A stretch of DNA of 64,000 bases, taken from contig JAFZAP010000043.1 of assembly GCA_017557185.1 (NCBI GenBank), forward strand, positions 26,982 through 90,981, in the 5' to 3' direction. How positions within the stretch are numbered: the first letter of the stretch is position 1; each line of letters begins with the position of its first letter. The notes below the pieces were generated by a model. That model was given only the letters and a program-made list of their open reading frames with translations, did no database searches and was not told the origin of the DNA. This DNA is from Prevotella sp. Its GTDB lineage: Bacteria > Bacteroidota > Bacteroidia > Bacteroidales > Bacteroidaceae. The translations under genes and the position numbers were made by a program. Positions 10,554-50,822 of this stretch are shown here, one piece after another.

Positions 10554-10568
10554 AACTATAGATGTTTT

Positions 10569-23622: not shown

Positions 23623-23646
23623 ATCATTCACAGCTTGAGAGATGGT

Positions 23647-25041: not shown

Positions 25042-25047
25042 CAATAG

Positions 25048-26433
25048 TTAGTTATTAACTGGAGTAAGCGAAAAATGGCGGACTTCCGGCTTGTTGATTT
25101 CATAGATACGCTTCACCATCAGGTCCATCTGGGCAATGTACGTATCGCGAACGTCCTTGTGAATCATCTTGTCGTAGATCTCACGACGCGCACCAACCCA
25201 TCCGTCAGTCTTTTGTCCCTCACGGAATACTTCAGCAGCATGCTCATCATTAACTTCAAGCAACCCCTTGCCCAGGAAGAAGTCATATTGTAACCATGCA
25301 TAATCGCGGAACTTACGCTCCAATTCCCAACGATCCTCATTAATTGCCATGATGGCGCATGCCTGCTGGTATTGAGGCGTATGTCGGTATTCTGCGAGAT
25401 TAATGCCGTTTGCGAGTTCTTCTGCTGTGAAATTAGCAATGAAAACATCGTCAATCACAAGCCGGTAGTCGCCACGCAGGCCTTTCACGCAGAGGCGCTC
25501 GTTGTCCATTTCTTCCATGAATGTAGGTACCACCTTCGTTATTTTACACTGGGCACGCTTGAACCCCCATCCATGAGCGATTGTGTCCAAAGGATATGGA
25601 AGGGAATTAGCAAGGTAGTCAAATGATATAACGCCGTGATTACTGATAAAATTGTTTATTTTGCAATTTTCTTGTTCAAGTATTTTGCCATTCTTTGCAT
25701 TTAAGGTAAAATCGGCGACCTTTTTGCCTGACATTCCCTGTGCCTTGAGGAAGAGATAAGCCATAACCATGTGTCCATCATTGTCAGGATGCACACGGTC
25801 ATTGCCACAGATGGTAAACGTAGAATCCTGCTGTTGGAAATAATGATTCATCTCGGTCATAGGGTGGTTGAAATCCACAAACTCCCATTTGTTTGCCTTT
25901 GCTGCTGAGTCCTGAAAAGCCACAATCTTCTGCATATAAGAGTTTTTGTTACGGAACACGTCCTTATTGAACTTGGACGTATCGTCATAAGGTGATGTTC
26001 CAACCAGCACGATTCGGGTATCAGTCAAACCCTTCAGGCGTTCTTCGATTTTCTTATACATACCTTTTGACCATTCAACCTTGCCGTTGCCGAAACTCTC
26101 AGCATTGTCGCCGTTGTACTCGTAATAGCCTGTGTCATTCATTCCAAATGTCAATGTGATAACGTTCGGACGCTTTGCAAACACGTCGCCGTCAAGGCGT
26201 TTCAGGATATTCTCACTAGTATCGCCACCTATGCCGCAGTTTGACATCCACATATCAGCATACGGGAAATGAGTCATGTAATAAAGCCAGATGTAACTGT
26301 GATAATGTCCGCCGTCTGTAATACTATTTCCTACGAAACATACACGGTCACCCTGCTTGAACGAGGTTACTTGCTGGGCATTGGCCGAAGCAAAGCAAAC
26401 AGCCAAAAGGATAAGAAGAATTGTTTTTTTCAT
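25048..26433 (-). CDS. SGNH/GDSL esterase with C-terminal extension
   Basis: 461 residues with a signal peptide ending ANAQ. SGNH blocks are intact: GNSITDGG with Ser37, CGIGGDTSEN, LTFGMND and GNDRVHPDNDGH. This catalytic domain takes the first 240 residues. The remaining 220 form a beta-strand stretch and a charged helical tail not found in simple GDSL esterases. An acetyl-esterase role on the target glycan is the usual one for PUL members. It lies 21 bp behind the large GH2 gene. Confidence 0.85.
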   Translation of the reverse strand: MKKTILLILLAVCFASANAQQVTSFKQGDRVCFVGNSITDGGHYHSYIWLYYMTHFPYADMWMSNCGIGGDTSENILKRLDGDVFAKRPNVITLTFGMNDTGYYEYNGDNAESFGNGKVEWSKGMYKKIEERLKGLTDTRIVLVGTSPYDDTSKFNKDVFRNKNSYMQKIVAFQDSAAKANKWEFVDFNHPMTEMNHYFQQQDSTFTICGNDRVHPDNDGHMVMAYLFLKAQGMSGKKVADFTLNAKNGKILEQENCKINNFISNHGVISFDYLANSLPYPLDTIAHGWGFKRAQCKITKVVPTFMEEMDNERLCVKGLRGDYRLVIDDVFIANFTAEELANGINLAEYRHTPQYQQACAIMAINEDRWELERKFRDYAWLQYDFFLGKGLLEVNDEHAAEVFREGQKTDGWVGARREIYDKMIHKDVRDTYIAQMDLMVKRIYEINKPEVRHFSLTPVNN

Positions 26434-33866: not shown

Positions 33867-35414
33867 TTATCTTTTCCACATTTTAAATTCAGAGAATTCT
33901 GCTGGTTTTTCTTTACTATTTGCCAATACAGCGGATATTACACCTGGACGGGCAACTCTGTCCCAAGGTGTGGTGTGACTTGCATCAACACTGGATGGTT
34001 CAAGTTTCTTCAAGCCATTGCCATCGTCATACATGAATGAAAGAGTTCTGCCGTCTTTCACTTCTGCCTGTAAACGGATGTTGCGTCTCTTCATTGGAAT
34101 TTCGCTCATAATGGTTTCCTTGCCGTTGCTTTTTGATATGGTTTGCAGTTTTTTGCCTCGCAAAACCAATGCAACATAGTTTCCCGCATCACCATATAGC
34201 ACTATTCCTCGCATTGACTGGCCATTATTTAATACGTTCACGGCAAAGCAGTAATCAGGATCAGGTGTACGCTGGCATAATACTGCAGCATTAGGTTCCT
34301 TGATACCATTTCCACTCAGGAGCAATTTACCTTTGCCATTCATTTCAGCTTTAACATCGCAGAATGTATAATTCCAAGTCCATGAAACACCGAGTCTGTT
34401 ACTTTCAAAATGATCCGCGAATTGCGTCCATTCGCCTTGCTTTATGCCTTCGAACGGCATCGGCTGACGACTGGTAGCGAGCCTGCCTGTCTTAAAGTGC
34501 GGCCATTGATCACTCCCAAACATGAGTTCCTGTACAATTGGTTGTCTGCCCATATAAAACTTGGCATCACGCTGATAGGAGTGACACAGGTAATATAATC
34601 TTCCATCGGGCGTTGTGGTAACAGTGCCATGCCCACAAGCCTGGAAATCATCTGAGCACATTAAAATAGGATTGTCGCTGTACTTTTGGAATGGTTCTGT
34701 AATCTTTTTAGAGCGAGCCACACGTACCTCGTAGTCGCTCCCCGGTCCGCAGCATCCTCTTGCTGAATAGAGCAGATAATACCAATCGCCATTACGGATA
34801 ATACACTGTCCTTCCATACCTATGGATTCCTCATCGGTAAGCAGAGAGAATGGTTCGCCCTCAAGATGAAGTCCATCAGAGGAAAGCTTGCAACAAAGGA
34901 TTTCTATTGGGCGTGGATCAAGTCCGTATGCCTTCCATGTGATATAGAGCTGCCCATTGTCATTAAACACGAATGCGTCAATGCATTCAGAACCTATGGT
35001 TACAAGCGGGCCTTTATCCTCAAAGGCTTTCTCTGGCGTATTGGAGACAGCTACTCCTATGTATGATTTGTGGTCACTTTTGCGTCGTGCAGAGTAATAG
35101 CAGTACACCTTGTTGTTATATACATATAACTCCGGAGCCCAGAATGAGCCTTCGGTCCAATCCGGTTTTTGTTCAAAGACGTGCCCCACCTGTATCCAAT
35201 TCACTAAGTCCGTTGACTTGTAAATAGGATAGAACGGTGCCCACTCTGATGAAGTACCAGAGGCGTAGTAAGCTCCGTCAAAACGAATAACAGAAGGGTC
35301 TGCCAAATCCGTTCTTATAACCGGGTTCTGGTAAAACCCAAGCTCTTGAGCATTGACATTACAAAGAGAAAATGCCACAAGAAGCAAGCTGATGAGGAGT
35401 CTAAGTCTATTCAT
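33867..35414 (-). CDS. GH43 glycosidase with C-terminal beta-sandwich
   Basis: 515 residues, signal peptide ending NVNAQ. Five-bladed propeller with the three expected acids: Asp in RTDLADPSVIRF, Asp in ECIDAFVFND, and Glu in IGMEGQCII. WAPELYVYNNKVYCYYSARR is typical. From about residue 315 a sandwich domain (FADHFESNRLGVSWTWNYTF) matches the GH43 C-terminal type. Known activities are alpha-arabinofuranosidase, beta-xylosidase and beta-galactosidase, and the sequence alone does not decide. In a mannose-oriented locus it probably trims a side group. It is 6 bp behind the first GH92 listed next. Confidence 0.9.
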   Translation of the reverse strand: MNRLRLLISLLLVAFSLCNVNAQELGFYQNPVIRTDLADPSVIRFDGAYYASGTSSEWAPFYPIYKSTDLVNWIQVGHVFEQKPDWTEGSFWAPELYVYNNKVYCYYSARRKSDHKSYIGVAVSNTPEKAFEDKGPLVTIGSECIDAFVFNDNGQLYITWKAYGLDPRPIEILCCKLSSDGLHLEGEPFSLLTDEESIGMEGQCIIRNGDWYYLLYSARGCCGPGSDYEVRVARSKKITEPFQKYSDNPILMCSDDFQACGHGTVTTTPDGRLYYLCHSYQRDAKFYMGRQPIVQELMFGSDQWPHFKTGRLATSRQPMPFEGIKQGEWTQFADHFESNRLGVSWTWNYTFCDVKAEMNGKGKLLLSGNGIKEPNAAVLCQRTPDPDYCFAVNVLNNGQSMRGIVLYGDAGNYVALVLRGKKLQTISKSNGKETIMSEIPMKRRNIRLQAEVKDGRTLSFMYDDGNGLKKLEPSSVDASHTTPWDRVARPGVISAVLANSKEKPAEFSEFKMWKR

Positions 35415-35420
35415 AATACG

Positions 35421-37568
35421 TTATTCCCAGGATGGAGGTTCCTTTTCGAGTCCCCAGTGTTTATTGGGCTTTGCAGAGGTCACATAATTCAATGTTGCGC
35501 CATTCGTAAGTTCGTCAAGGTTTATCCAAGTCTGATTAAAGGTCTTACCATTGAACTTAAGTGACGAGGTGAAAGGTTTCCCTTCAGCACCACCTGTTAT
35601 AACAATATTCTTGCCATTAGGAAGATGTACTATGGCCTTTGGGAACATCGGAGTGTTGAGGGCAAAGCCTCCGACGCCGGGAATCTCCGGATAAAGTCCA
35701 AGGCATGCCCAAACGTACCATGCTCCCATAGCACCGAGGTCATCATTGCCAGGCAATCCGTTTACCTTTGCCGAATACATCTCATTCAATGTACGGCGTA
35801 TTACATCTGATGTCTTCCATGGCTGCCCCACCCAATTGTAGCACCATGGTATTCCAAAGCTCGGCTCATTGCCACATGCGAACCACTCGTCGCCATATCC
35901 TGCATCGAGACGTGTAAAGTACTCATCAAGGCGTTCTATTGCCTTTTGCTTACCACCGATGATGTCAATCAGACCTTTGATATTGTATGGCACCATCCAG
36001 AAATAATCCTTATACGTTGCCTCACGCCAGTCCTCGCCCTGATTTTTCCACGATCCATCCTCGTTACGAGAGCAGAGCCAAGTAGTTTCAGGATTATACA
36101 GGTTTTTCCACGAACGAGCGAAATGGAAATATCTCCATGATGAGAACTCGTCACCAACAGCATACAAAGAGTATTGAGCGATGGCAAAATCGGCTGATGT
36201 ATATTCAAGCTGAATGGAAGCAGGGCAATATCCTTTGTCCAAGTATGACTTGAGGTGAGGACGCGTTTCATATCCTTGCGAAGCTGCTCCAGGTACTTCT
36301 GCGCCACGTTTCATTATTTCAAAGATAGGCTTTGGATCATAGTTCCGTGCACCAAATGCCCATGCGTTACATATAAGGATAGAAGAAGGGTCTCCCTGCA
36401 TGATGCCTGTTTCACAGTTAGCCATCACCCAACGTGGCAACGAACCGCCTGACTGTTCAGCGAAGTCTTTGTGAGAGATTACAATATCGCTCGCCACGTC
36501 TGGCTCCAGCATAGCCAGAACCTGTATCTGCGTGCGGTATGTATCCCAGTTAGAAAATTGAGTATATTGCTTGAAGTTAGTCTTGTGAACTTGGAAATCT
36601 GCACCCATATACTCGCCATTAACGTCATTGCATACACTTGGATGAATAAATGTGCGGTAGAGATGGGAATAGAACTGTTCCTCACGCTCTTTCGTCCCAC
36701 CGCTAATTTCAATCAGTGAGAGAACGTCATTCCATTTGCTTTCAGCGTTTTTCTGTACGGAAGCGAAGTTCCACCCTGCGTTCTCAGCCCGGAGATTAGC
36801 ACGGGCATTCTCTACGGACACATAACTCACGCCAACCTTGTATTGCAAAGGCTTACCGTTAGATGTATCAAACGTAAAATATACGCCTGAATACTGCCCT
36901 TCTGCGAATGTTTCACCTCGATGCAACTCTATCTTTTTCCATGTTCCTTTCTCTATGCAATCTGCATCAAACTCAGCATAGAAGTAAACCTTGTAATGGG
37001 TTGGCAAGCCACAGAACTGTCCTCCGTCAGCATAGCCCTCGCACGACCTTGGAGAGGTTATTACTACTACTGCCTCCTTAATGTTTGTGCCTGCAATGCC
37101 AGCGCCAATTATTACAGAACCTTTCGTAGAACCTTCAGGGTATGTGAAGCGAGCCATGCCTGTTCGCTCTGTAACAGTCATCTCGGCCTTCACGTTATGG
37201 TTTACCATTGCCTTGTAGTAGCCTGCGTGACCTTCCTCGTCACTGACCATTATCTTAGCATTGCGTATCATATCAGGAGAAGCCTTCAACTCTCCGTTGA
37301 TTGGGAACATAGGGAAGTTTCCCATGTGCTCGCACCCGGCTCCACTGGCTTGGTTTATTACAAATCCGGCATGTTTAGCAAAATATGACGGTGTGAACTG
37401 AACCATACCATGAGGATATGTAGCACCTGGATATAACTGACCTGATGCCAAACCAGCGCCTTTAGTGCCTATGAGCGAGTTTACCTTGTGAGCATAGTCC
37501 TGTGCACCGGCATTCAGTGCCACTAGCATGCAAACCAATAAAACAAATTTTTTACTCATTACTTTCAT
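35421..37568 (-). CDS. GH92 alpha-mannosidase with intact catalytic Glu
   Basis: 715 residues from the ATG at 37568, which overlaps the upstream stop; an ATG at 37559 is an alternative. The signal peptide ends NAGAQ. GH92 features: SGAGCEHMGNFPMFPI, DEEGHAGYYKAM, FSNWDTYRTQ, EYTSADFAIAQY, FACGNEPSFGIPW and LPGNDDLGAMGAWYVW. Glu568 in GNEPS is the expected catalytic acid and the GNDDLG segment carries the base. These calcium-dependent inverting exo-alpha-mannosidases trim alpha-1,2/1,3/1,4/1,6 linkages. Linkage cannot be read from sequence. Confidence 0.93.
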   Translation of the reverse strand: MKVMSKKFVLLVCMLVALNAGAQDYAHKVNSLIGTKGAGLASGQLYPGATYPHGMVQFTPSYFAKHAGFVINQASGAGCEHMGNFPMFPINGELKASPDMIRNAKIMVSDEEGHAGYYKAMVNHNVKAEMTVTERTGMARFTYPEGSTKGSVIIGAGIAGTNIKEAVVVITSPRSCEGYADGGQFCGLPTHYKVYFYAEFDADCIEKGTWKKIELHRGETFAEGQYSGVYFTFDTSNGKPLQYKVGVSYVSVENARANLRAENAGWNFASVQKNAESKWNDVLSLIEISGGTKEREEQFYSHLYRTFIHPSVCNDVNGEYMGADFQVHKTNFKQYTQFSNWDTYRTQIQVLAMLEPDVASDIVISHKDFAEQSGGSLPRWVMANCETGIMQGDPSSILICNAWAFGARNYDPKPIFEIMKRGAEVPGAASQGYETRPHLKSYLDKGYCPASIQLEYTSADFAIAQYSLYAVGDEFSSWRYFHFARSWKNLYNPETTWLCSRNEDGSWKNQGEDWREATYKDYFWMVPYNIKGLIDIIGGKQKAIERLDEYFTRLDAGYGDEWFACGNEPSFGIPWCYNWVGQPWKTSDVIRRTLNEMYSAKVNGLPGNDDLGAMGAWYVWACLGLYPEIPGVGGFALNTPMFPKAIVHLPNGKNIVITGGAEGKPFTSSLKFNGKTFNQTWINLDELTNGATLNYVTSAKPNKHWGLEKEPPSWE

Positions 37569-39859
37569 TTGCTTGTTGAAACAGAATATGGTGCTGACGC
37601 AGTAGTGTTATTGCGCTGCTTGTTTGGCTGAGGTCCCATCTGGAATGACAGTATGCCTCCATTCCACATATCATCATAGGTAATATAGTTCTTATCAAGA
37701 TTCTTACCATTGAGAGTGCCACTCTGTATGTAGCAGTTATCGAGGTTGTTGTCCTTCGCTTCAATGACGAACTTCCTTCCATTTTCCATTGTGATTGTAG
37801 CCTTACGGAATATTGGAGAGCCAATAACATACTGGTTTGTGCCTGGAGTTACAGCATAGATACCCAATGCAGAGAGAACGTACCACGATGACATACCGCC
37901 TTGGTCTTCATCGCCAGGGAATCCATCAGGAGTGCTGTTGTAAAGGCGTGACATAATCTGGCGAACCCAATACTGTGTTTTCCATGGCTGTCCTGCATAA
38001 GAATACAGGTATGTCATGTGCTGAATAGGCTGGTTGCCATGTGCATACTGTCCCATATTGGCGTTTTCCATTTCTACCATCTCATGAATCTTGCCGCCAT
38101 ACCATCCCGGGTCGACTGTATTAGGAACAGAGAATACGGAGTCTATCTTCTCGCAGAATTTCTTCTCGCTGCCAAACAAGCGAATGAGACCATCAACGTC
38201 ATGGAATACCGACCAGATATAATGCCATGCATTGCCTTCAGTATAAGGACCACCCCATTTTATGGCTGTGAAGGGTTCTGTCCATGAGCCATCGGCATCT
38301 CGTCCACGGAAGAAACCGATATTACCGTCCCAGAGGTTCTTGTAATTATACATCTGCTTGGCAAACACACGCTCGTAGAACTTATTGCCGCAAGATTTTG
38401 CGAGCTGATAAGCACACCAGTCATCATAGCAGTATTCGAGAGTCTGTGTGACGCTGCCATGCGACATTGGGAAAGGAACATAGCCAATCTCAAAGTACTC
38501 TTTCCATCCCGCACGACCATTGGCACCGCCCCACGGACCTTTGTTCATCGCTTCGTGTGCATAGGCTACAAGGGCGGAGTCAGGATTAAAGTTGCGTATG
38601 CCCTTTGCCCAGGCATCAGAAAGAAGGGATATTGCGTGATTACCGCACATGCCGCCTGTTTCTCCAGGGAAAGACCATGACGGAAGCCATCCACATTGCT
38701 TTTGTGCAGCAAGAAGGGCGTTCATGTAATGGCCCTGCTGTGTAGGGTGAAGTATGTTGGTCAGAGGGAACTGTGAGCGGAATGTATCCCAGAATCCATT
38801 GTCGGTAAACATATATCCGTCATAGATTTTCCCATCGTATGGACTATAATAATATGGTGTGCCGTCCTCACGAATCTCATAGAACTTACGCGAGAAGAGA
38901 TTGGAACGGAACAAACAGGAGTAGAATGTGCGCATCTGCTCATCAGTGCCACCCTCCACCACTATGCGTGAGAGCACTTTCTCCCACGTCTCGCGACCAC
39001 GTTGCTTTGTCTGCTCAATGCTCTTGTCCTTGCCAAGTTCGCGGGTAAGGTTTAGGCGAGCCTGGTCAAGAGAGATGTATGAAGACGCTGCCTTAGCCTG
39101 AACTTTAGCACCCTTCTTGAATTTCAGATATGCTCCATATCCATCACCTTTTCCCTTGCTTTGCTTTGCAAACGTCTTGTTATTGCGGTTTTCCCACGTT
39201 CCATAGTCAGCAAAAGGCTGATCGAACTGGATGATGAAATAGTTGAAGAAATTCTCACCATGGTTACAAAACCGGTGATTGTGTACCCAGCCGCGCACCT
39301 GACGTGCCGCAGGGTCAATCTCTATCTCACTGTCGCCATTATAACCGTCGATGATGAGCCACGAATCGCCAGTCTTCGGATAAGTGAATCGAAAGTGTAC
39401 GCCACGTTCCGTAGGGGCGAACTCTGTCTGTACGCCATTGTTGAACTTTACTGAATAATAGTGGGGCTTGCCCGTTTCGTTATCGTGTGAGAACTTTGCA
39501 CCACGTTTATTAGGGTCAACAACAAGGTCGCCTGTTTCAGGAAAGAAGGTATATACAGAATAGTCGCTGACCCATGGAGAACATTGGTGCGACTGTCCGA
39601 AGCCACGGATTTCATCGGCAGAATAGAGATACTTGAAGCCCTCGCCATTAGGTCCAGTCTGTGGTGTCCACATGTGTTGCGCAAATGGCATGGCAGTAGC
39701 AGGGAAGGTGTTGCCATGCGACAACCCGAAATTGGAATTCGTGCCCTGAAGCGTGTTAACATAATCTACCAATGAGGTTGTCCTGCTTGCAGCCTTGGCT
39801 GACATTGTGTTTGGAACCAATACTACGGCTGCGGCTAATACGAGTGATTTAATATTCAT
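37565..39859 (-). CDS. GH92 family protein with Gln in place of the catalytic Glu
   Basis: 764 residues, signal peptide ending TMSAKA. It is a full-length GH92: HQCSPWVSDYSVYTFFP, FTDNGFWDTFRSQFPL, EYCYDDWCAYQLAKSCG, QYAHGNQPIQHMTYLY, FPGDEDQGGMSSWYVLSALG. At the acid position it has Gln610 (GNQPI) where its neighbour has Glu. From the literature on a Cellulosimicrobium GH92, a Gln there goes with cleavage of mannose-1-phosphate-6-mannose, where no acid help is needed. Whether that holds here is untested, and GNQP members are also common among ordinary Bacteroidetes GH92. It is 29 bp behind the GH97 gene and overlaps the next gene by 4 bp. Confidence 0.92.
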   Translation of the reverse strand: MNIKSLVLAAAVVLVPNTMSAKAASRTTSLVDYVNTLQGTNSNFGLSHGNTFPATAMPFAQHMWTPQTGPNGEGFKYLYSADEIRGFGQSHQCSPWVSDYSVYTFFPETGDLVVDPNKRGAKFSHDNETGKPHYYSVKFNNGVQTEFAPTERGVHFRFTYPKTGDSWLIIDGYNGDSEIEIDPAARQVRGWVHNHRFCNHGENFFNYFIIQFDQPFADYGTWENRNNKTFAKQSKGKGDGYGAYLKFKKGAKVQAKAASSYISLDQARLNLTRELGKDKSIEQTKQRGRETWEKVLSRIVVEGGTDEQMRTFYSCLFRSNLFSRKFYEIREDGTPYYYSPYDGKIYDGYMFTDNGFWDTFRSQFPLTNILHPTQQGHYMNALLAAQKQCGWLPSWSFPGETGGMCGNHAISLLSDAWAKGIRNFNPDSALVAYAHEAMNKGPWGGANGRAGWKEYFEIGYVPFPMSHGSVTQTLEYCYDDWCAYQLAKSCGNKFYERVFAKQMYNYKNLWDGNIGFFRGRDADGSWTEPFTAIKWGGPYTEGNAWHYIWSVFHDVDGLIRLFGSEKKFCEKIDSVFSVPNTVDPGWYGGKIHEMVEMENANMGQYAHGNQPIQHMTYLYSYAGQPWKTQYWVRQIMSRLYNSTPDGFPGDEDQGGMSSWYVLSALGIYAVTPGTNQYVIGSPIFRKATITMENGRKFVIEAKDNNLDNCYIQSGTLNGKNLDKNYITYDDMWNGGILSFQMGPQPNKQRNNTTASAPYSVSTSK

Positions 39860-39888: not shown

Positions 39889-41856
39889 TTATTCAATTAC
39901 GGCAGTAAAACCGCCATTGCGTACCATTTTGATGTTCAATACTTCAGCGCTTGTAACGCTCTTAACCTCACGGCGATAATCCATAGCCTGCACATCTGCA
40001 TTGAAACCATCGGTGAAAATAGTCATCTGATGTGCACCTGGTGTAAGGAATGAGAGCGGAACATTAAACTGGCGGACCTTCTCCTTACCGTTGCATATAC
40101 CGGCTACGAACCACTTCTGACCATGGCGCTTGGCAATAATGAGATATTCACCGAACTTTGCCTCAATGGCATGAGTTTCATTCCACGTAACCGGCACCTT
40201 ACTCAGGAAGTCAATGCAATCGGGGTTCTTACAGTACTGCGTAGGAGAGTCAGCCAGCATCTGCGTGCCAGTTTCAAGTACAGTAAAGAGAGCCATGTGA
40301 TAAGCACGAGTACCAACGGCAGAACAGTTCGGATCTGACCATTTGTCATATTCCGGCTGAGTATTAATCATTGCACCTGGGGTAAAGTCAGCAGGTCCAA
40401 CAGCATTGCGCAAGAAAGGTATGAACAATGTGTTATCCGGCCGGCAACCACTCATCTGCTCCAATCCGCGGACACCTTCATAGGCCAAAAGATTAGGATA
40501 GCGTATCTCAAGACCTGCAGGTTTCATGGCACCATGGAAGTCAACAACAAGATGATGCTTTGCAGCCTCCTTGATGGTACGTTCATACCAATTAATCATC
40601 CACTGATCCTGACGGTCCATGAAATCAATCTTCGTGCCGACAATGCCCCATTTTTCGTATGTGTCGAATATCTTGTCAAGGTTGCGTTCAACACATATCC
40701 ACGTAAGCCAGAGTATAATTCCTACACCCTTTTGCTTACCGTATCTTATACATTCATGAAGGTCGAGATTAGGATTTGCCTCAAACGGCTCAAATGTTCC
40801 TTTGGCCCAGCCTTCGTCCATGATAATATACTTGATGCCATACTTGGCGGCAAAATCAATGTAGTACTTGTAAGTCTCTGTGTTACAACCAGGTTTGAAG
40901 TTAACATCGGGACCATATATGGACTTGTGATTCCACCAGTCCCATGACACCTGACCTGGCTTTATCCAACTTGTGTCGTCGATTTCGCACTTACCGGCAA
41001 GTTGCGCAGTAAGCGTCTGTTCAAGTATTCCCTTGGAATCAGAAATAACAACATAGCGCCATGGGAGTGAACGCTTTCCTATAGTACGCACGGCATAAGG
41101 TGCAAGTTCCTTGATTACCGTTCCTCTATCCCAAAAGAGTTCCCATTCCTTGTAATATGGCACAAGGTTTCCAGAAAGGCAATTCTTGTCTCCATTGCCC
41201 TTGATGTAAAGTCCGGCATAGTCGCGAAGGTCGCTTTCGGAGATCAGAAGATGCAGGTCGCGCTTTGTTGAGGAGAGCGCCATTGGTAGTACAGACATAT
41301 CGTGCTCATACTTCCATTCCTTCAGCATGCAACTTATGTAAGGTGACTCTGAGCCAGTTCCCCATCCTCCAGTCGGTTGGTAATGCACTACCATTTCATC
41401 TGCAGGCTTGAGATTGAAAGTTTCATCAACTATGTTGATTGAGTCCCTTTCATTCAGTATGAAACGATATGCAACTGCATTGTTGAAAACGCGGAATTCA
41501 ACAGAGTACTTCTCACCCATTGAAAAGGCTGCTTTCGTATAGTGATTGGCGATGTTTGCCTGCTTAAGAGGCACCGTTAGCCTAAGGTCCTCTTTCACGC
41601 TTGAAATCTTGACAGACTTGATCTTGGTTTTGGCGCCAACAGATTTGTTCTGCAGCTTGACCATGAGATCTGTTTGAGTGAACAGTTTTTCACCGTTGAG
41701 AGATGTGGTATAGGACAAACTGCCCCCTGCATCAGAAATCAAAACAGATATCTTTCCATCGGGAGATGTAACCTTTACGTCTTTCGCATTGACAGATAAG
41801 GTTGAGAAGATAGCAACCAATGCAATAGCTGCATTTAAGCATATAGGGTGTTTCAT
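39889..41856 (-). CDS. GH97, retaining alpha-galactosidase type
   Basis: 655 residues with a signal peptide ending VNAK. It has a complete GH97 plan: N-terminal super-sandwich (TSPDGKISVLISDAGGSLSY), barrel with QVSWDWWNHKSIYG, IIMDEGWAKG, GIILWLTWICVERNLD and KIDFMDRQDQWM, and a C-terminal sandwich. Asp411 in KIDFMDR takes the place of the nucleophile of the retaining branch; inverting SusB-type alpha-glucosidases use Glu elsewhere. I therefore favour alpha-galactosidase. That would fit galactose-capped mannan (inference). It is 6 bp behind the propeller lipoprotein gene. Confidence 0.92.
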   Translation of the reverse strand: MKHPICLNAAIALVAIFSTLSVNAKDVKVTSPDGKISVLISDAGGSLSYTTSLNGEKLFTQTDLMVKLQNKSVGAKTKIKSVKISSVKEDLRLTVPLKQANIANHYTKAAFSMGEKYSVEFRVFNNAVAYRFILNERDSINIVDETFNLKPADEMVVHYQPTGGWGTGSESPYISCMLKEWKYEHDMSVLPMALSSTKRDLHLLISESDLRDYAGLYIKGNGDKNCLSGNLVPYYKEWELFWDRGTVIKELAPYAVRTIGKRSLPWRYVVISDSKGILEQTLTAQLAGKCEIDDTSWIKPGQVSWDWWNHKSIYGPDVNFKPGCNTETYKYYIDFAAKYGIKYIIMDEGWAKGTFEPFEANPNLDLHECIRYGKQKGVGIILWLTWICVERNLDKIFDTYEKWGIVGTKIDFMDRQDQWMINWYERTIKEAAKHHLVVDFHGAMKPAGLEIRYPNLLAYEGVRGLEQMSGCRPDNTLFIPFLRNAVGPADFTPGAMINTQPEYDKWSDPNCSAVGTRAYHMALFTVLETGTQMLADSPTQYCKNPDCIDFLSKVPVTWNETHAIEAKFGEYLIIAKRHGQKWFVAGICNGKEKVRQFNVPLSFLTPGAHQMTIFTDGFNADVQAMDYRREVKSVTSAEVLNIKMVRNGGFTAVIE

Positions 41857-41861
41857 TGTTG

Positions 41862-43166
41862 TTACTCTTCAAATATACTTTCCCAGTTGAATATGCGGTA
41901 GAAATATGGGCGTACGTAATCAGCACTTCCAGGATATGTGAAGTTATCAGCATTCGCTGCGGCTGTCTGTGAAGTGGAGAATACCAGTTCTCCATTTCTT
42001 GACAAACTCTGATGAAGCACTACTCTCGTCAGTGCAGAATAGTTGCGGTTGCCCAGTTTATCAACAGATGTAGGAACGACAAACAGAGTCTTCTGCTCAG
42101 CAAAAGGACCGTATGGGGTCTTGGAACGCCATATATATACCGTATTCCCATCCTTGTACTGCTGACCGATGATATAATAATAATCACCGCTCTTGATAGC
42201 TTGTGGGTTTTGGCAGCTACCATTGTCAGCAAGTACGTTTGAACGAGGTGCGGCAAGTTTTGAGTCTGGCATTTCCGTAACCCATTCGTAATTACCATTG
42301 GTATTGAGAACCCAGTATTCAGGCTGGCTGTTGTAGTTGTCATTAGCAAAACGTGACACAAGTATCTGGCTGTTGCTGTTGAGCACATTCGAAGCATACA
42401 TGTACGTATAACCATCATTATTTACAAGCTGGCTATGCTCAAACGTCAGCGTGTTGGAATTGAGCTCTTCATTTGTGTTGACGACACGCAGATATCCTTG
42501 ATCACCAGGATTCCCCGTAAGCGTATAGTCAACAAGTGCCGTTGAATAGCGTGGAGCTGTTGGTGTAGTGCCGTAATATCCATAAAGCACATGCATCTGT
42601 CCGTTGCTGTAATTGGCGAGCAAAGGATAATATCTGCGGTTTGACTTGCTTGACGGCATGAGTTCTACGCCGTTATAATATGTTTTCTCAGTTGGGGCAT
42701 CCGTCTGAACGAGCTCATTCAGAGCAAAGAGATCGCCCGGCTTTGGATTCTCAATATCACCTGACTGTATAAGCAATGCAGTACGCACGGTGTTGGCATT
42801 TGCCTGGCGTGCACGTGTCTCTGCATCCACTATGCCAAAGAAGCTGTCCCTTGCTCCCCACACGACTTTGTTGTCAGGCATACGGTATGAGAAAACAATG
42901 TCACCGCCCGTCCAGCCCTTTGTTGTTGTAAACAGAGCGTTGTACAATCTGTCTTCATATACAAATATGCGCTTATCAAACTGACCGTTGTTGTACACGA
43001 CTTTAAGCTGCCATGAAGGGTCAACAGAAGGAGGCGTAGGCTCTACTTCTTCATCATCGGCAGGAGCCTCATAGCCTATGGCAGTAGTGTCATAGTCGTT
43101 ACATGCAGTAAATGATGCAGCCAACAATAAGAGGCCGATTATCATGTTTATATGATTCTTCTTCAT
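41862..43166 (-). CDS. Propeller-like surface lipoprotein, paralogue D
   Basis: 434 residues. The lipobox is SFTAC followed by NDYD and an acidic Pro-rich linker (DDEEVEPTPPSVDP), which fits surface export in Bacteroidetes. The propeller blocks match paralogues A-C but are more divergent: MPDNKVVWGARDSFFGIV, RTALLIQSGD, NDGYTYMYAS, TPYGPFAEQ, RNGELVFSTS, YFYRIFNWESIFE. The Asp of RDSFFG is kept. Its position directly behind SusC, SusD and the DUF1735 protein is where surface endo-enzymes or glycan-binding proteins usually lie. It is the best candidate in the locus for a surface enzyme of a new family (inference). Confidence 0.83.
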   Translation of the reverse strand: MKKNHINMIIGLLLLAASFTACNDYDTTAIGYEAPADDEEVEPTPPSVDPSWQLKVVYNNGQFDKRIFVYEDRLYNALFTTTKGWTGGDIVFSYRMPDNKVVWGARDSFFGIVDAETRARQANANTVRTALLIQSGDIENPKPGDLFALNELVQTDAPTEKTYYNGVELMPSSKSNRRYYPLLANYSNGQMHVLYGYYGTTPTAPRYSTALVDYTLTGNPGDQGYLRVVNTNEELNSNTLTFEHSQLVNNDGYTYMYASNVLNSNSQILVSRFANDNYNSQPEYWVLNTNGNYEWVTEMPDSKLAAPRSNVLADNGSCQNPQAIKSGDYYYIIGQQYKDGNTVYIWRSKTPYGPFAEQKTLFVVPTSVDKLGNRNYSALTRVVLHQSLSRNGELVFSTSQTAAANADNFTYPGSADYVRPYFYRIFNWESIFEE

Positions 43167-43178
43167 ATCTTCACTCTT

Positions 43179-44183
43179 TTATTGTTTCAAAGGAGATAAA
43201 ACTTCATACATAAAATGCCACTTCTTCTCAGTTGAGAGTCTGTAACGATAGTTGATAGTAAAGGTCTGGGTTTCCGGGTCATAATAGCTTTGCTCGCCTT
43301 CAACATCACCAACAACTACAGAAGTGCTGGAGTAATCCCAACTTCCGACAGTTACCTTCTGGCGTTGGAGGTACTGGCCTGTTGGTATTCCCTCGTTAAG
43401 AACCGGAACATCTACAATCTCATCAGGATGAACAGTCAGAACGATATTCTTGTTGCGTTCATCAACTTCATTCGCACTTATCAAAGAACCTGGCATCATG
43501 CGTACGGAAGTCTCACCTGCCGGCTTGAGCAGTTTCGTAGAATTCATGCCTGTGCCCGGGGCGTCGGGTGTGAATACGCCATTCGACTCAGAATAAATCT
43601 GCTCAAGACCAGCCATGTTATAATAGCTGTTCGACTTGGACGTGGCATAGTCATTCTTTACGTAAATGCGGAAGAGAACCACACGACGTGTAGGCGAAAT
43701 CATGTATTTTGAAACAGACTTAATGCGGAGCGGAATATAATATTCCTCGCCATCAATGAGGTTTGATACATTCACTTTGATAGGCAACATCACATTAGGC
43801 TTCGGATTGTCCTTGGAAATGGTTACCCTCCAGTTCTCTATCACATAATTCTCCGGGGCAAGCTGCTGAACATAGTTAGCGTAGTTCTCACCATGTATGC
43901 GCTGATTGTATGAGCGCAGAGCCTGAGGATAGAGTTCAAGTTCAACGTCCACATCTTCCTCAATGGCAGTGGTGCCACCGACATATATTGATATGTAGCC
44001 TACCGACTCCTTTCCGAATGCATATTCCTGCCCGAAGATATTCTCATCACCACTGACGATATATACCTCCTTGCGATACTGCTCTTCTTCATAGAAATTC
44101 GTTTCGCATGACGTAATGGTTGTCAGTGCCGTGGTGCCGGCAGCAATGAGCCAGCAACAGTTTATGATATTCTTGATTTTCAT
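43179..44183 (-). CDS. DUF1735/DUF4361 surface glycan-binding lipoprotein
   Basis: 334 residues, lipobox TITSC followed by ETNFYEEEQ. The order is an N-terminal Ig-like DUF1735 domain (VYIVSGDENIFGQEYAFGKE, PIKVNVSNLIDGEEYYIPLRI, RRVVLFRIYV) and a C-terminal lipocalin-like part (DPETQTFTINYRYRL, KWHFMYEVLSPL). Proteins of this make-up next to SusD act as accessory surface binders, for instance in N-glycan and mannan loci. It is 29 bp behind susD. Confidence 0.82.
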   Translation of the reverse strand: MKIKNIINCCWLIAAGTTALTTITSCETNFYEEEQYRKEVYIVSGDENIFGQEYAFGKESVGYISIYVGGTTAIEEDVDVELELYPQALRSYNQRIHGENYANYVQQLAPENYVIENWRVTISKDNPKPNVMLPIKVNVSNLIDGEEYYIPLRIKSVSKYMISPTRRVVLFRIYVKNDYATSKSNSYYNMAGLEQIYSESNGVFTPDAPGTGMNSTKLLKPAGETSVRMMPGSLISANEVDERNKNIVLTVHPDEIVDVPVLNEGIPTGQYLQRQKVTVGSWDYSSTSVVVGDVEGEQSYYDPETQTFTINYRYRLSTEKKWHFMYEVLSPLKQ

Positions 44184-44212: not shown

Positions 44213-46216
44213 CTACTTCTCCCAACCAGGGTTCTGGTCAAGTGTCGGAGCCTTGCGCACCTCATTGAGGTTAAGCGGCAAGAGAATCATCTTGTCTTTC
44301 CATACACGCTCGCGTATGGTTGAGTGCTGGATGACGCATGGCTGATAGAAGCCGTTCCATTCTCCCAGATTGACATTGAGGCCTGTGAGCGGTTCTTTCT
44401 CGAGTTGATCAACAATGCCCCAACGGCGTATGTCGTAGAAGCGATGACCTTCGTGGAATAGTTCAATGGCACGTTCACGCTGAATAATCTGGTCGAATGT
44501 CTCAACATTGGCAAGTTCCTCATCGCTGACGCCAGGGAGTCCTGCACGATAGCGGATTCGGTTGAATGCGCTCTTAATCTCATCCGTATTGCGGCTAACC
44601 TTGATGCCGTCGATATCCCATTCCTGTGTAAGGTGGTTAAGTGCCTCGGCATAGGTGAGAAGCACTTCAGCATAGCGGATAAGCGGAAGTACCTTTGAAA
44701 TGGTACGTGCGCTCTCACCCGACAATGCATCCGTAGGATGTACATACTTGGTACAAACGTATCCCGTAGTGCAATAGACGTTATTCGTTGAAAGTTGAGG
44801 ACCATTATTGCCACCGCGGAAGTAGGTCACCTGGATATCATGCTTACCTGTAACATTCGTGGAAGACATTGTCCAAAGACGATTTGAGAAACCGATATTG
44901 GCATAGAAGCGTGGTTCACGGTTATCATAAGCCGCATACGTGCCTCCCTTGAGGACATAGTTCTTCGACAAAGTCTTGTCAGCCTGAGTTATACAGGTGT
45001 TGTCATAGGGACGATTGTTGTATGGATATTCAGCACTTGCATTCTTGATGTCCCTGCCGTCCACCATGTAGAAATAGTCAACCATGCGCTGTGGCACGCT
45101 CATTGCCCCCCATCCGCCAAGCGTCATCGGGAAATGATTACCGAGCTGGTCATTGACGCCTTCTGTAGTTCCCCAGATGAGTTCCGGATTTGTCATAGCT
45201 ACTGCCTCACCTGTAAACTGCTCTGAATATGAACGGAACGGATCAATGCCGCCGGCCCCGTTAGGATATTCTGCAGAAGGAACGTTTGCCGGGAGTTCCA
45301 CCGTGTACTGGTCGGCAGGTACGGTGTAGAGATCGTAGCGCTTCATGTCGATTACCTTCTTGGCTGCAGCTGCTGCAACGGCCCATTTGCGTTCATCGTA
45401 TGTCTGCGAAACATAGTATTCGCCATCAGATTTACGCTTGAAATCGCTGAAGTAACGACGAGCGGCTGGTCCGCCATTATACAATGGAGATGCTGCTGTC
45501 AGGCGGATGCGTGCTGCAAGAGCAAGTGCAGCGCCCTTTGTTGGAGCATACAACTCATTCTGATTATGTTCCTCCGGCATGTATTCAGCAGCCTCGGTTA
45601 ACTCGGTGCAAATATAGTCGACGGTCTCATCCATCGTGTTTCTTGAATGGGAGTAATACTCTGTACTCTCGTTGCTACTGAGTATCTCATCACCGAGAAT
45701 CACTACAGGCCCCTGGTTACGTAGAATCCAATAATAGGCATAAGCACGAAGGAAACGTACCTGGCAACGGAATTGCATCTTTTCTATACTGTTCATGTCA
45801 GGCACAGCGCTGATATTCGACAGCAGAGTGTTGCATTTGCGCACAATCTTGTAGCATGGGTCCCACACATTGAAATCCCACGTCCAGCCTGCCATTGATG
45901 ATGCTGTAACCTGATTTGTGGTGAGCATTGTCCCGGAATACTGAATATCCAGGAAACCACCGTTCCATGTACCGCACGATACAGCTTCGTCGCTGCCTGT
46001 GAGTCCGGGAGTGCTACCATAGTGCCAAAGTCCTCCTTCCTTAGGCAGAAGGTTTACAGCACCATTATAATAGCGCGTAATATTATATTTATTGGCAAAA
46101 ATAGAGTCTTCGCGGAAGGTGTCAGCGAAATAGTCGTCGACATTCAGGTAATCGGTGCAGCTGCCCATTCCGAACATCATTGCCATTAATGAAGAAAACA
46201 ATAATATCTTTTTCAT
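44213..46216 (-). CDS. susD: SusD/RagB outer-membrane lipoprotein
   Basis: 667 residues, lipobox GMGSC then TDYLNVDDYFADT. Tetratricopeptide-type helices typical of SusD are seen at QFRCQVRFLRAYAYYWILRNQG and RYAEVLLTYAEALNHL. The C-terminal IIQRERAIELFHEGHRFYDIRRWG is the most conserved SusD_RagB block. It forms the lid over the SusC transporter and captures oligosaccharides. It is 21 bp behind susC. The gene symbol denotes the family; the glycan is not starch as far as the context shows. Confidence 0.96.
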   Translation of the reverse strand: MKKILLFSSLMAMMFGMGSCTDYLNVDDYFADTFREDSIFANKYNITRYYNGAVNLLPKEGGLWHYGSTPGLTGSDEAVSCGTWNGGFLDIQYSGTMLTTNQVTASSMAGWTWDFNVWDPCYKIVRKCNTLLSNISAVPDMNSIEKMQFRCQVRFLRAYAYYWILRNQGPVVILGDEILSSNESTEYYSHSRNTMDETVDYICTELTEAAEYMPEEHNQNELYAPTKGAALALAARIRLTAASPLYNGGPAARRYFSDFKRKSDGEYYVSQTYDERKWAVAAAAAKKVIDMKRYDLYTVPADQYTVELPANVPSAEYPNGAGGIDPFRSYSEQFTGEAVAMTNPELIWGTTEGVNDQLGNHFPMTLGGWGAMSVPQRMVDYFYMVDGRDIKNASAEYPYNNRPYDNTCITQADKTLSKNYVLKGGTYAAYDNREPRFYANIGFSNRLWTMSSTNVTGKHDIQVTYFRGGNNGPQLSTNNVYCTTGYVCTKYVHPTDALSGESARTISKVLPLIRYAEVLLTYAEALNHLTQEWDIDGIKVSRNTDEIKSAFNRIRYRAGLPGVSDEELANVETFDQIIQRERAIELFHEGHRFYDIRRWGIVDQLEKEPLTGLNVNLGEWNGFYQPCVIQHSTIRERVWKDKMILLPLNLNEVRKAPTLDQNPGWEK

Positions 46217-46237: not shown

Positions 46238-49200
46238 TTAGAAGTTCAGTTGCAATTGCAGAGTGTAGCGTCCGGTAAGAGGATATGCACGACCGGTCGA
46301 TGTAGCCTGTTCCGGGTCATATATCTTGACTGAATCCCATACGCCGAGATTCTCGCACATCAGTTGGATATCAACAGACTGCATGCCAATCTTGGTGATG
46401 AAAGGCGCTTTCAGCCTATAGTTCAAGCTGACTTCCTGCAGACGCAGGTAGCGTGCGTCGCCTTTCCAGAATGTAGACGGCTTCGTGTTGTTGGAACTGT
46501 TTCCGTAGTGCAGGCGTGGGAAACGGGCATTAGGATTCTCGGTTGAAGGGTCTCCAGAGTACTCTGCCGATGTCCAACGATTATTCTGGTCATAGGCAAT
46601 CGCCAGCACATTGCCTTGATAGCCTCTGTTGAATGGCATATAGCCGTCGAAGTTATCTCCATTGCCACCGCCGTAGAGGAAGTAGTTGTGGCCTGTGCCT
46701 TTGAACAATACGTTCAGCGTAAGGCCTTTATAGTCAGCAGAGAATCCAAGACCGTACATGAACTGAGGAATACCTGAGTATGCGAAGAGAGGTACTCTGT
46801 CATCGTCGTTGACAACACCGTCGCCATTGACATCCTTGTACTTGATGTCGCCAGGAAGGACAGTACCGAACTGTGAAGGACTCATGTCGATTTCTTCCTG
46901 TGACTCAAACAATCCAAGCGCTATGAAACCACGCTGTACGTTGTTGGCAAAACCGTTCTTCTCAAGGTAAGGATATGGCTGACGTGCTTCTTCCCAATTA
47001 AGAATCTTGTTCTTTGACAAGGTGAAGTTGCCGCGAAGCGTAAGGAAGAAGTCCTTGCCGAACTTCTGGAAGAACTCGAAGTTACCGTCACCACCCCAGC
47101 TCTTCATGCTACCCACGTTGCCGTAAGGCATGCTTGTCAGACCTACGTATGCAGGAACCTGTGTACGCTGCTGGAAGATAGCATCACGACGGTCGAGGAA
47201 GTAATCAAGCGTAACTCTGAATTTGTCATTAAAGAGGTGGAGGTCCATACCTGCGTCGAACTTCTTTGCCTTCTCCCAGACAAGGTTGTCGGCACCTACC
47301 TGACTCTCGCTGAGGATGCCCACGCCGCCCCATTTGGTCGTTCCGTCACTCTCGTTGATGAGCGTGATGTACGGGAAGCGAGTCGAGGCTATCTGGTCAT
47401 TACCTACAATACCGTAGGATGCACGCAGTTTCAAGAATGAGAGCCAAGGTAAAGTATTCTGTACGAACTTATATTGTGTTGGAATCCAGGCGACGGCAGC
47501 CGATGGGAAGAAACCATACTGTCGGCCCGGCTGGAAATTCTCAGAACCTGTGAGACCGAAGTTTGCATCGATGAAGTATGTATCCAGGTATCCATAGTTG
47601 ATACGTCCGGAAAGCGACTGGTAGCGTTTTGGAATAGCGTTCATACTGCTGGATGCGCCCGACTCACTTGTATCCTGACAATAATAGAAGAGCAGAGCAC
47701 CGATGCTGTGGTCATCAAACTTGCGGTCGTAGTTGATATTTGCATCGAAATACCACTTACGCCATGCCCACGATGCGCTATTATAGCCTACGCTCTTGGA
47801 AATCACGCGGTTCGACAATATCAGGTCGCCTGCTGAGTTACGACCTGTGGCCATATAGAGTGCAGGCATCTTGAAGCGGCTTTCACCATACATCGACTGA
47901 TTATCGAACGAACCCTGAATCTTTGCACGAAGTCCCTTTGTGATCATAGCCAGATCCTGCTCCAGAGCTATTGTTATCATGTTACGATAGTTCTGCTGGC
48001 GGGTAGTACCTGTGTAGTTCAGCAAAACGTAAGGAGAAATTTCATCACCATCGTTAGTTGCAGGAAGATAGCCGTTCGAGTAGCGGAGCGGATACATGAC
48101 AGGCGTTGTCTTTGCCTGTGAGGACCATATCCAGTCGGTCATGCTGATGGAACTGAAGCCACTGCCCATACTCGGACGGTCGTTGATTGACACGTAGCTC
48201 GTCCCGCCGAGATAAATCTTTGTAGTCTTCGTGAGATTGATGTCCAGATTCATTCGGAAGTTGTAAGTTTTGTAACCTACGCCGTTCTTATATGGGCTAT
48301 CGTCGGCCATCTTGTAGGCAGAAGATTCATCCGACATGCCAAGGGATGCAAAATAACGGGCAATGGAGCCACCACCCTGGGCACTTACATAGTAAGTCTG
48401 CTGGAAGGAATTCTTGTGAAGGAGCTCATCCTGCCAGTTCACGTTTGGATAAAGGTCGGGGTCGAGGTTGTAGCGCAGGATATCCATTTCAACGTCGCTA
48501 TAGACAGGCGGCATGGAGGATTGCACGGCTGCCTCGTTGGCCAGTTCCGCATAGCGTGTGGCATCAAGGTATTCAGGAACGCGCTTCAAATGGGATATCG
48601 TGTAGTTGGCGCGCCCGGTAATGCGGAGCTTCTGCTCAAGGCCGCGCTTCGTAGTTACGATGATAACGCCATTAGCACCACGGTTACCATAGACAGCTGT
48701 AGCAGATGCGTCCTTCAGTACAGAGAAACTCTCCACGTCGGCTGCCTCCACCTGGCTAAGGTTACCCTCAAGTCCGTCAATAAGAACGAGCGCAGAGCTG
48801 TTAGCGCCGAATGTGCCGATACCGCGTACCCAGAACTCTGAGATATTTTTTCCAGGTTCGCCGCTGCTTTGCACTCCGATCACACCGGCCACACGGCCTG
48901 CGAGTGTGTTGACAATGTTCGTGGCAGGCTTCACCAGCTCTGACGGATCAATCGTAGTGATGGCACCGGCAACGCTGACTTTACGTTGCGAGCCCATACC
49001 TACAACCACCACTTCATCGACATCAGCACCTTTTTCATGAAGGACAATGTTGATGGTCTCGTTCTCTTTTATGATACGGTGTGTCACCTGTTCAAAACCG
49101 ATGAATGAAACCACAAGATTGTCATACATATTTACTTTTATAGAGAAATTACCGTCGATGTCGGTAACGGTACCCACACCCGGTTTGTCCTTTATCACCA

Positions 49201-49333
49201 CGGTGGCACCGATAACCGGTTCGTTGTTGGCATCCACTACCACACCCTTGGCTGTAAACGATTTCTCATCCTGTGCGTAGACTGACTGCATAGCCAGCAA
49301 CAGCATAAATATGAGTGAAAGATATTTTTTCAT
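46238..49333 (-). CDS. susC: SusC/RagA TonB-dependent outer-membrane transporter
   Basis: 1031 residues, signal peptide ending VYAQ. It has an N-terminal carboxypeptidase-regulatory-like domain (KGVVVDANNEPVIGATVVIK, VTDIDGNFSIKV) and a TonB box area DVDEVVVVGMGSQRKVSVAG. The plug follows with GRVAGVIGVQSSGEPG, GIGTFGANSSALVLIDGLEG and VLKDASATAVYGNRGANGVI, then a 22-strand barrel ending LTGRYTLQLQLNF. There is no STN domain, which agrees with control by the HTCS rather than by an ECF sigma/anti-sigma pair. It takes up fragments in complex with SusD. Confidence 0.97.
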   Translation of the reverse strand: MKKYLSLIFMLLLAMQSVYAQDEKSFTAKGVVVDANNEPVIGATVVIKDKPGVGTVTDIDGNFSIKVNMYDNLVVSFIGFEQVTHRIIKENETINIVLHEKGADVDEVVVVGMGSQRKVSVAGAITTIDPSELVKPATNIVNTLAGRVAGVIGVQSSGEPGKNISEFWVRGIGTFGANSSALVLIDGLEGNLSQVEAADVESFSVLKDASATAVYGNRGANGVIIVTTKRGLEQKLRITGRANYTISHLKRVPEYLDATRYAELANEAAVQSSMPPVYSDVEMDILRYNLDPDLYPNVNWQDELLHKNSFQQTYYVSAQGGGSIARYFASLGMSDESSAYKMADDSPYKNGVGYKTYNFRMNLDINLTKTTKIYLGGTSYVSINDRPSMGSGFSSISMTDWIWSSQAKTTPVMYPLRYSNGYLPATNDGDEISPYVLLNYTGTTRQQNYRNMITIALEQDLAMITKGLRAKIQGSFDNQSMYGESRFKMPALYMATGRNSAGDLILSNRVISKSVGYNSASWAWRKWYFDANINYDRKFDDHSIGALLFYYCQDTSESGASSSMNAIPKRYQSLSGRINYGYLDTYFIDANFGLTGSENFQPGRQYGFFPSAAVAWIPTQYKFVQNTLPWLSFLKLRASYGIVGNDQIASTRFPYITLINESDGTTKWGGVGILSESQVGADNLVWEKAKKFDAGMDLHLFNDKFRVTLDYFLDRRDAIFQQRTQVPAYVGLTSMPYGNVGSMKSWGGDGNFEFFQKFGKDFFLTLRGNFTLSKNKILNWEEARQPYPYLEKNGFANNVQRGFIALGLFESQEEIDMSPSQFGTVLPGDIKYKDVNGDGVVNDDDRVPLFAYSGIPQFMYGLGFSADYKGLTLNVLFKGTGHNYFLYGGGNGDNFDGYMPFNRGYQGNVLAIAYDQNNRWTSAEYSGDPSTENPNARFPRLHYGNSSNNTKPSTFWKGDARYLRLQEVSLNYRLKAPFITKIGMQSVDIQLMCENLGVWDSVKIYDPEQATSTGRAYPLTGRYTLQLQLNF

Positions 49334-49377: not shown

Positions 49378-50766
49378 TTATTCTATGGCAAGACGACGGA
49401 TAGCATGGTTGTCACAGTCGCCAACGTAGATGATGTCATCCTTGTCGATGCAGATGCCGACAGGACGGTTGAATTTTGCCACCTCACTTACGCCATTCAC
49501 ATAGCCTGCCTGCTGAGGCAAGCCTGCTACTGTCGAAACGTAGCCAGTTGAGAGATTGATTTTGCGAATGCAGTGGTTATCTGTGTCGCAGACGTAAAGA
49601 TTGCCTTCGCTGTCCTTTACCATTCCGTGAGGGCCGTTAAACTGAGCCTGTGCGAGCGTACCGTCAAGATGGCCTGCTCCCGTCATCGATGCACGGCCGG
49701 TCAGAATGCTTATCTTGCAAGTGGCTACGTCCAACTGGTAAATGCAGTTCTGACTTGAATTGGTGTAGTAGAGAATCGTAGGATTGTTCTTGTCGAACAC
49801 CATTCCGAACGTCTCTCCGTCCTTCGTATCAATAGGTGAGCCTTCTGTCTGGCCATTTGCCCTGTTATAGACGAGAGTCAGACGGTTGCCGATAGCAGTA
49901 ACAGGGTCGAAACAATAGAAATCGCCACCGAGCACTCTCGAATAGAACTTACCGTCGGCAGGGCACATGGCAACAGCACGACGCGCACCCCAGATACCCA
50001 TGCCATCTACAATGTATTTCGTGTCATCGTAGGTCACGTTAGCCTTGCCAAGCTGAGCAAAGTTGTTATTCGGGTCATAATACCAATACTCATTATTGGC
50101 GATGTTTGCCTGCATGTGATAAACGCGGTCGTTGACATCATCATAGACAACGATCGGACGCGTCAGGAAAATACCGAGTTCGTCGATGAGCACAAGCTGT
50201 CCCGACTCAGGATTTGCTACGTAACGGAGGAAACTGCTGTTGTGGCTGTCAATCTCGAAGTAAATATTGCCAGCCCTGTCAACGCAGAGACCGCCGTCGA
50301 TACTTGAGTTGAACTGCACCTCCGAAAGATTCTCAATAGCACTCGGGTTGGTCTGCGCACTCGCGTCACCACCGCAGATGGTACTGATGTTGGTCTGAAT
50401 CTGGTAGTCGAACTCTCCGTCGAACGTTGCCTCCTGGTCACCGATGCAAACCTTAATCTTCACATGCTCACCAGGGAGACGCGGAGCAAGAACCAGAATA
50501 TGGTCCTCGTTCACATTAATCACAGGAGCTTCCTTCGCATTGAAAAAAACGCGGACGGCATCCTTGTCTGATCCGAAGTTGGAACCCCGAAGGATAACCT
50601 GTGTGGAAATCGGGCCGCCACTTGGATAGAACGACTCACAAACGATAGGCTTGTTCGGGTCGAATGTGTTCACTTCTTCGCTTTCGCTGCCGCAAGAGAA
50701 CAACATGAACACGAAACCAGCCACACAGCCCATGAGCCGAAGTGTCTGTAATTTTTTGTTCTTCAT
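49378..50766 (-). CDS. IPT/TIG and NHL-repeat surface lipoprotein
   Basis: 462 residues from the ATG at 50766 (MKNKKLQTLRLMG); a longer frame begins 36 bases upstream. The lipobox is MLFSC then GSESEEVN. Residues about 35-110 are an IPT/TIG Ig domain (SFYPSGGPISTQVILRGSNF). The rest is a propeller of NHL repeats (GLCVDRAGNIYFEID, GMVKDSEGNLYVCDTDNHCI, GICIDKDDIIYVGDCDNHAI). Such proteins precede or follow SusC/D in several Bacteroides loci and act as glycan binders. It is the first gene of the SusCD operon, 44 bp before susC. Confidence 0.88.
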   Translation of the reverse strand: MKNKKLQTLRLMGCVAGFVFMLFSCGSESEEVNTFDPNKPIVCESFYPSGGPISTQVILRGSNFGSDKDAVRVFFNAKEAPVINVNEDHILVLAPRLPGEHVKIKVCIGDQEATFDGEFDYQIQTNISTICGGDASAQTNPSAIENLSEVQFNSSIDGGLCVDRAGNIYFEIDSHNSSFLRYVANPESGQLVLIDELGIFLTRPIVVYDDVNDRVYHMQANIANNEYWYYDPNNNFAQLGKANVTYDDTKYIVDGMGIWGARRAVAMCPADGKFYSRVLGGDFYCFDPVTAIGNRLTLVYNRANGQTEGSPIDTKDGETFGMVFDKNNPTILYYTNSSQNCIYQLDVATCKISILTGRASMTGAGHLDGTLAQAQFNGPHGMVKDSEGNLYVCDTDNHCIRKINLSTGYVSTVAGLPQQAGYVNGVSEVAKFNRPVGICIDKDDIIYVGDCDNHAIRRLAIE

Positions 50767-50822
50767 TTTGTAATTATTTAATGTTAGTGTAATTTTTTTC
50801 ATGAATAATAATAAATACAGGG

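Follow-up and report, generated by a model that had tools for sequence, protein, structure and literature searches.

We analysed a 64,000-nucleotide stretch of a Prevotella sp. genome (hereafter, the window), which encodes four related proteins of the Pfam family DUF5005, here named by their start positions. We give an even chance to the reading that one of them, the 41862 protein, is a retaining surface hydrolase resembling glycoside hydrolase (GH) family 183 and acting on a mannose-containing glycan. Aligned with the mutagenised GH183 pair, its D89 would be the nucleophile and D107 the acid/base, and the anomer would be retained. It would open the degradation of a mannose-containing heteroglycan next to SusCD with a first cut, perhaps of the endo type, and two GH92 enzymes, GH97, GH130, GH43 and esterases would then trim the products. 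The same pair is present in 23647 and 9183, which would attack either the polymer or fragments that arise later, and the copy at 10569, with its nucleophile lost, would probably be a non-catalytic partner of 9183. For the window proteins we show the family membership, the alignment of the Asp pair, the lipobox motif and the gene order; hydrolysis, the retaining mechanism and the endo mode are what we infer.

All four genes lie on the minus strand, and their products score above the whole-protein cut-off of DUF5005 (PF16396; 29.6 bits). They are the predicted surface lipoprotein of clade A (41862..43166; 434 aa; E = 7.4e-110, 368.2 bits), exported proteins of clade B (23647..25044; 465 aa; E = 2.2e-154, 514.9 bits) and clade C (9183..10553; 456 aa; E = 3e-80, 270.6 bits), and a clade D protein with a type IX secretion system (T9SS) sorting domain (10569..12167; 532 aa; E = 6.5e-57, 193.7 bits). 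Given these E-values the likeness among the four is not due to chance; identity to the 41862 protein is 36, 31 and 30% for the other three (28–37% among all four). The preliminary description had seen four paralogues with a common tryptophan–Asp-Ser–aromatic motif, and this stands: the reading frames are real, and W-x3-D-S-[FY]-[FY]-G occurs in every copy (WGARDSFFG, WSFNDSFYG, WCFGDSFFG and WMHTDSYFG). No further copy was found in the source genome (89% complete), where five matches correspond to the four proteins because 41862 is split in two. DUF5005 is uncommon, with its cut-off reached in 7 of 395 genomes of the taxonomic class and 18 of 399 of the taxonomic family (the source genome is in both counts).

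DUF5005 has a solved structure, 4HBS ('putative hydrolase'), which is BACOVA_04882 according to a title in the reference list of one paper (PMC9671378). It matches the 23647 and 41862 proteins at E = 3.8e-142 and 9.6e-78, respectively, and its residues 14–411 of 416 align to a profile of the four proteins, for which a five-bladed propeller can be predicted from it. 4HBS keeps both of the Asp residues discussed below; unlike it, 41862 has lost a loop Asp and 10569 the nucleophile. The available text of another paper states that the catalytic five-bladed propeller of EndoMA1, a GH183 endo-D-arabinanase, resembles 'hypothetical protein BACOVA_04882' (PMC10509167), so the fold kinship of DUF5005 and GH183 is already published, in one sentence. 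The family, its structure and this kinship were thus known, and the suggestion that 41862 founds a new endo-glycosidase family is not supported. A literature search found no function for DUF5005, with a whole-word '4HBS' query that would miss forms such as 4HBS_A; one paper, in the part available, notes DUF5005 appended to a predicted CBM32 (PMC5742341).

The four proteins had also been said to resemble DUF4185 (PF13810; cut-off 39.5 bits), the Pfam family of GH183. As a remote kinship this holds, by profile comparison and alignment, but the proteins are DUF5005 and miss the PF13810 cut-off: the best score in the source genome is 22.1 bits, on a stretch of the 9183 copy only, and a whole-protein Pfam scan of the four at E up to 1 listed no DUF4185 match. 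Both models are matched by several Bacteroidota proteins, two of which score above both cut-offs (41.4 bits for PF13810 and 32.2 for PF16396 at locus L009; 52.4 and 29.9 bits at L018). Profile comparison, which the preliminary description had proposed, made the DUF5005 membership clear and supported the kinship with GH183. It gave 100% for DUF5005 against intermediates, 97.9% for intermediates against GH183 (in an alignment that begins just before the acid/base Asp and leaves the nucleophile outside), and 91.5% for DUF5005 against GH183 with both Asp residues matched, the GH183 profile being built from four rows only (L092, L105, L106 and L107). Judged by these comparisons, DUF5005 is a distant sister of GH183, from which it differs in its scores below the PF13810 cut-off, in a third acid without stable alignment and in its gene company. 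Profile similarity to GH43/GH32-like five-bladed propellers is local, covering one blade and about 40–75 residues only (4qqs, 4.8e-07; 3kst, 9.1e-07), and the acid of GH43 is a differently placed Glu (PMC10509167, available text).

The catalytic residues of GH183 have been mutagenised in two enzymes, each reported in a paper available in part. In EndoMA1, D33 is the nucleophile and D51 the acid/base, and D33N, D51N, E243A and E243Q nearly abolish activity (PMC10509167); of the D. gadei mutants, D170A and D188A are inactive, and the Glu mutant broadly keeps its activity (PMC10115798). When 52 proteins were aligned, all three MAFFT modes placed D89/D107 of 41862 at this pair. The aligned residues are D97/D115 in 23647 and D72/D90 in 9183, again 18 residues apart, and in 10569 the first Asp is replaced (Leu70). 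The arrangement expected of GH183, two Asp residues 17–18 apart near the propeller N-terminus, is thus seen in 41862, 23647 and 9183 and not in 10569. Paired acids in the propeller, whose lack would have refuted the preliminary description, are kept by alignment in three of the four copies, including 41862, so that three are candidate hydrolases and the fourth is probably a pseudoenzyme.

Conservation of the pair was scored in 62 non-redundant rows, including the four window proteins. After removal of rows with E above 1e-9, those shorter than 330 aa and exact duplicates, 85 remained, from which rows at least 92% identical were removed; loci left without a row include L025, L045, L046 and L048. 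Groups were taken from a tree of 51 core rows, the 11 distant rows forming group F. Support was 100/100 for clade A, 100/99 for D, 93/84 for C and 81/51 for the A0 pair; the labels A0 and B0 denote grades in the tree, not supported clades. Both Asp residues are kept throughout A (7/7), B (13/13), B0 (6/6), E (4/4) and the scorable C rows (8/8; a ninth is truncated), in 10 of 11 F rows, in neither A0 row and in only one of ten D rows. All scorable core rows have a spacing of 18, and an insertion widens it to 25–27 in four of the 11 F rows.

The 41862 protein begins with a lipobox (SFTAC-NDYD) according to a regular expression that also flags some ordinary signal peptides. Each of the seven A rows and the two A0 rows has a lipobox, with C-N-D-Y as the first residues after cleavage, and surface exposure is predicted. 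In gene order 41862 directly follows SusC (a TonB-dependent receptor; 46238..49333), SusD (44213..46216) and a DUF4361-type lipoprotein (43179..44183; BT_3987-like N-terminus and BT_3044-like C-terminus), a probable glycan-binding protein whose DUF4361 name comes from its Bacteroides finegoldii homologue; all are on the minus strand. The earlier view of 41862 as a surface lipoprotein next to SusD is therefore borne out. An IPT/TIG and NHL lipoprotein (49378..50802, minus strand) heads this conserved cassette. DUF5005 immediately follows DUF4361 in all 13 loci that carry the latter (11 scripted; L033 and L034, where an overlapping reverse frame had been picked, by gene order and match coordinates), and the B. 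finegoldii DUF5005 locus is a simple version of the arrangement. With its Asp pair kept and its predicted anchoring at the surface, 41862 is a good candidate for the first-cut enzyme.

Several observations weigh against this reading. The loop Asp that is D207 in 23647 is absent from clade A, which has Leu in six and Val in one of its seven rows, whereas the residue is kept in 38 of 38 rows of B (13), B0 (6), C (9) and D (10); the clade A pocket may have been remodelled. The meaning of the loss is unsure, since the residue is also missing from three of four E rows (with the pair intact), one of two A0 rows and six of 11 F rows. In the two A0 surface homologues, whose genes are placed as that of 41862 is, the first Asp of the pair has been lost (Ile in Bacteroides faecis, L031; Ser in Bacteroides sp. 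L032). The column of the third GH183 acid (E243 of EndoMA1) shifts among the three alignment modes and mostly does not hold Glu in DUF5005. Finally, linkage to GH92 is partial: a GH92 gene accompanies DUF5005 in 16 of 42 loci (a pattern search gave 41, to which L104 was added) and in 4 of 19 stretches flanking the A- and B-type hits in the sample from the taxonomic family, where genes were labelled by blastp to window proteins only.

The most serious alternative, to which we give clearly less than an even chance, is that 41862 binds glycan at the surface rather than cutting it: a propeller enzyme would have been co-opted to hold the glycan beside SusCD and have lost its activity. Its main support is the A0 homologues without the first Asp together with the clade A loop Asp loss. 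The ratio of nonsynonymous to synonymous substitution rates (dN/dS) of the 41862 pair is also the highest of four pairs measured (0.15; others 0.025–0.075), clade D shows that DUF5005 proteins can be retained without the Asp pair, and Sus loci commonly carry binding lipoproteins at the position of 41862. However, all seven clade A rows keep both Asp residues, which are easily lost elsewhere, and the separate DUF4361-type lipoprotein already fills the binding slot.

The exported copies, which had been proposed to act on later intermediates, divide on this point: 23647 and 9183 keep the pair, as that proposal would have it, but 10569 has lost its first Asp and is probably not a GH183-type catalyst, making it a likely pseudoenzyme. 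It is under purifying selection (dN/dS = 0.075, a rough value with dS about 1), carries a Por_Secre_tail domain (29.7 bits, cut-off 27), and the source genome has a PorV-type gene. Nine of ten clade D rows have broken the pair in differing ways (Leu, Asn, Thr, Glu with Pro, or the second Asp changed to Ser) with the other invariant residues in place, which suggests several separate losses. In the window a D-type gene adjoins a C-type one, and the same is true of all 11 loci with a D-type gene (a script flagged 10 of them, and L029 was recognised by reading; the L050 gene was assigned to D by the tree). In this tandem (9183–12167 in the window), D precedes C in the direction of transcription here and in five loci, and follows it in six; between its two members, the pair decays in D only.

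The preliminary description saw no other obvious surface endo-enzyme in the locus. However, the 23647 copy may also be held at the surface, through a lipoprotein encoded beside it (22711..23631, minus strand), possibly its surface anchor or partner, and 10569 has its T9SS sorting domain. A lipoprotein of this type adjoins the B-type DUF5005 gene in 12 of 15 B-type stretches; among the other three, L123 holds a fusion (the same gene as in L078), L110 ends just past the gene, and L109 has none in 1.6 kb. In the L078 fusion a homologue of the lipoprotein is joined to DUF5005 (match 9.7e-14). A SusD-like gene was labelled in none of the 15, labels again coming from blastp to window proteins only. 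Elsewhere in the window, an 868-aa lipobox protein (6181–8787) resembles the 22711 lipoprotein at its N-terminus; its middle matches the metallophosphoesterase Lmo2642 (2xmo, 6.3e-27), and the usual metal motifs seem absent by eye.

The genes around 41862 bear on the substrate. On the minus strand there follow a GH97 gene closest to the retaining alpha-galactosidase model (39889..41856; NF053844, 552 bits, under the cut-off of 800), two genes of the alpha-mannosidase family GH92 (37565..39859 and 35421..37568) and a GH43 gene (33867..35414). Further along the same strand lie a GDSL esterase (25048..26433), a recurrent neighbour found in 11 of the 42 loci, and a GH130 beta-1,2-mannosidase of the BT3780 type (20729..21853; NF058598, 602.9 bits over 550); two GH2 genes and a SASA esterase are also in the window. 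With GH92 in just four of the 19 stretches and the B-type stretches without a labelled SusD, we infer a mannose-containing substrate for the SusCD-linked copies only.

Another alternative, which we consider unlikely, is that DUF5005 proteins are exo-acting or debranching furanosidases (of galactofuranose or arabinofuranose, for example) rather than endo enzymes. Fungal galactomannan joins galactofuranose to alpha-mannose and would suit both this alternative and the mannose context. The GH183 relatives act on furanosides, but the cleft of EndoMA1 is of the endo type (PMC10509167, available text). As a special case, DUF5005 could be GH182. That family was founded on an exo-galactofuranosidase, BACFIN_04787 (PMC10115798), from B. 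finegoldii, a species that carries DUF5005 in a GH92/GH130 locus. This likeness is one of species, and the available part of that paper names no protein family for BACFIN_04787. That DUF5005 proteins are D-arabinanases like GH183, with which they have the catalytic pair in common, is very improbable, as the gene context (GH92, GH130 and GH97) speaks mildly against D-arabinan and no DUF2961/GH172 partner was found in the source genome (89% complete; the control was silent too, so absence is not shown).

Three further observations concern the surroundings of these genes. A 570-aa exported protein (13238–14950 in the window) without a Pfam or PDB match shares 52% identity with a neighbour of DUF5005 in the B. 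faecis locus L031, and is a possible orphan glycoside hydrolase. To the left of the window, a separate cluster with SusD, GH78-type, GH2 and further GH92 genes (L108, 9104–18617) adjoins an Lnb gene. In Bacteroides reticulotermitis (L048, 10086–11252), DUF5005 is in two frames, as the SusC-like genes there seem to be, through decay or assembly errors.

Beyond the 41862 protein itself, we tentatively propose, at somewhat less than an even chance, that DUF5005 is a glycoside hydrolase family in a clan with GH183, moved from D-arabinan to mannose-containing glycan, with a surface first cutter and with 9183 and 10569 as active enzyme and conserved pseudoenzyme. If 41862 hydrolyses its glycan, a family with a solved structure but no assigned role would gain a function, and the hypothesis names the two residues concerned, D89 and D107. 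Should BACFIN_04787 be the B. finegoldii DUF5005 protein, the function of the family would be partly known and the novelty lower. With hydrolysis by 41862, the relation to GH183 would also show how a pair of the D33/D51 type can serve on a different sugar, and the missing first enzyme would be supplied for a cassette of SusCD, DUF4361 and DUF5005, in part with GH92 and GH130, that recurs in Bacteroidales. The recurrent tandem of active and inactive members in clades C and D lends itself well to testing how pseudoenzymes act as partners when glycans are broken down.
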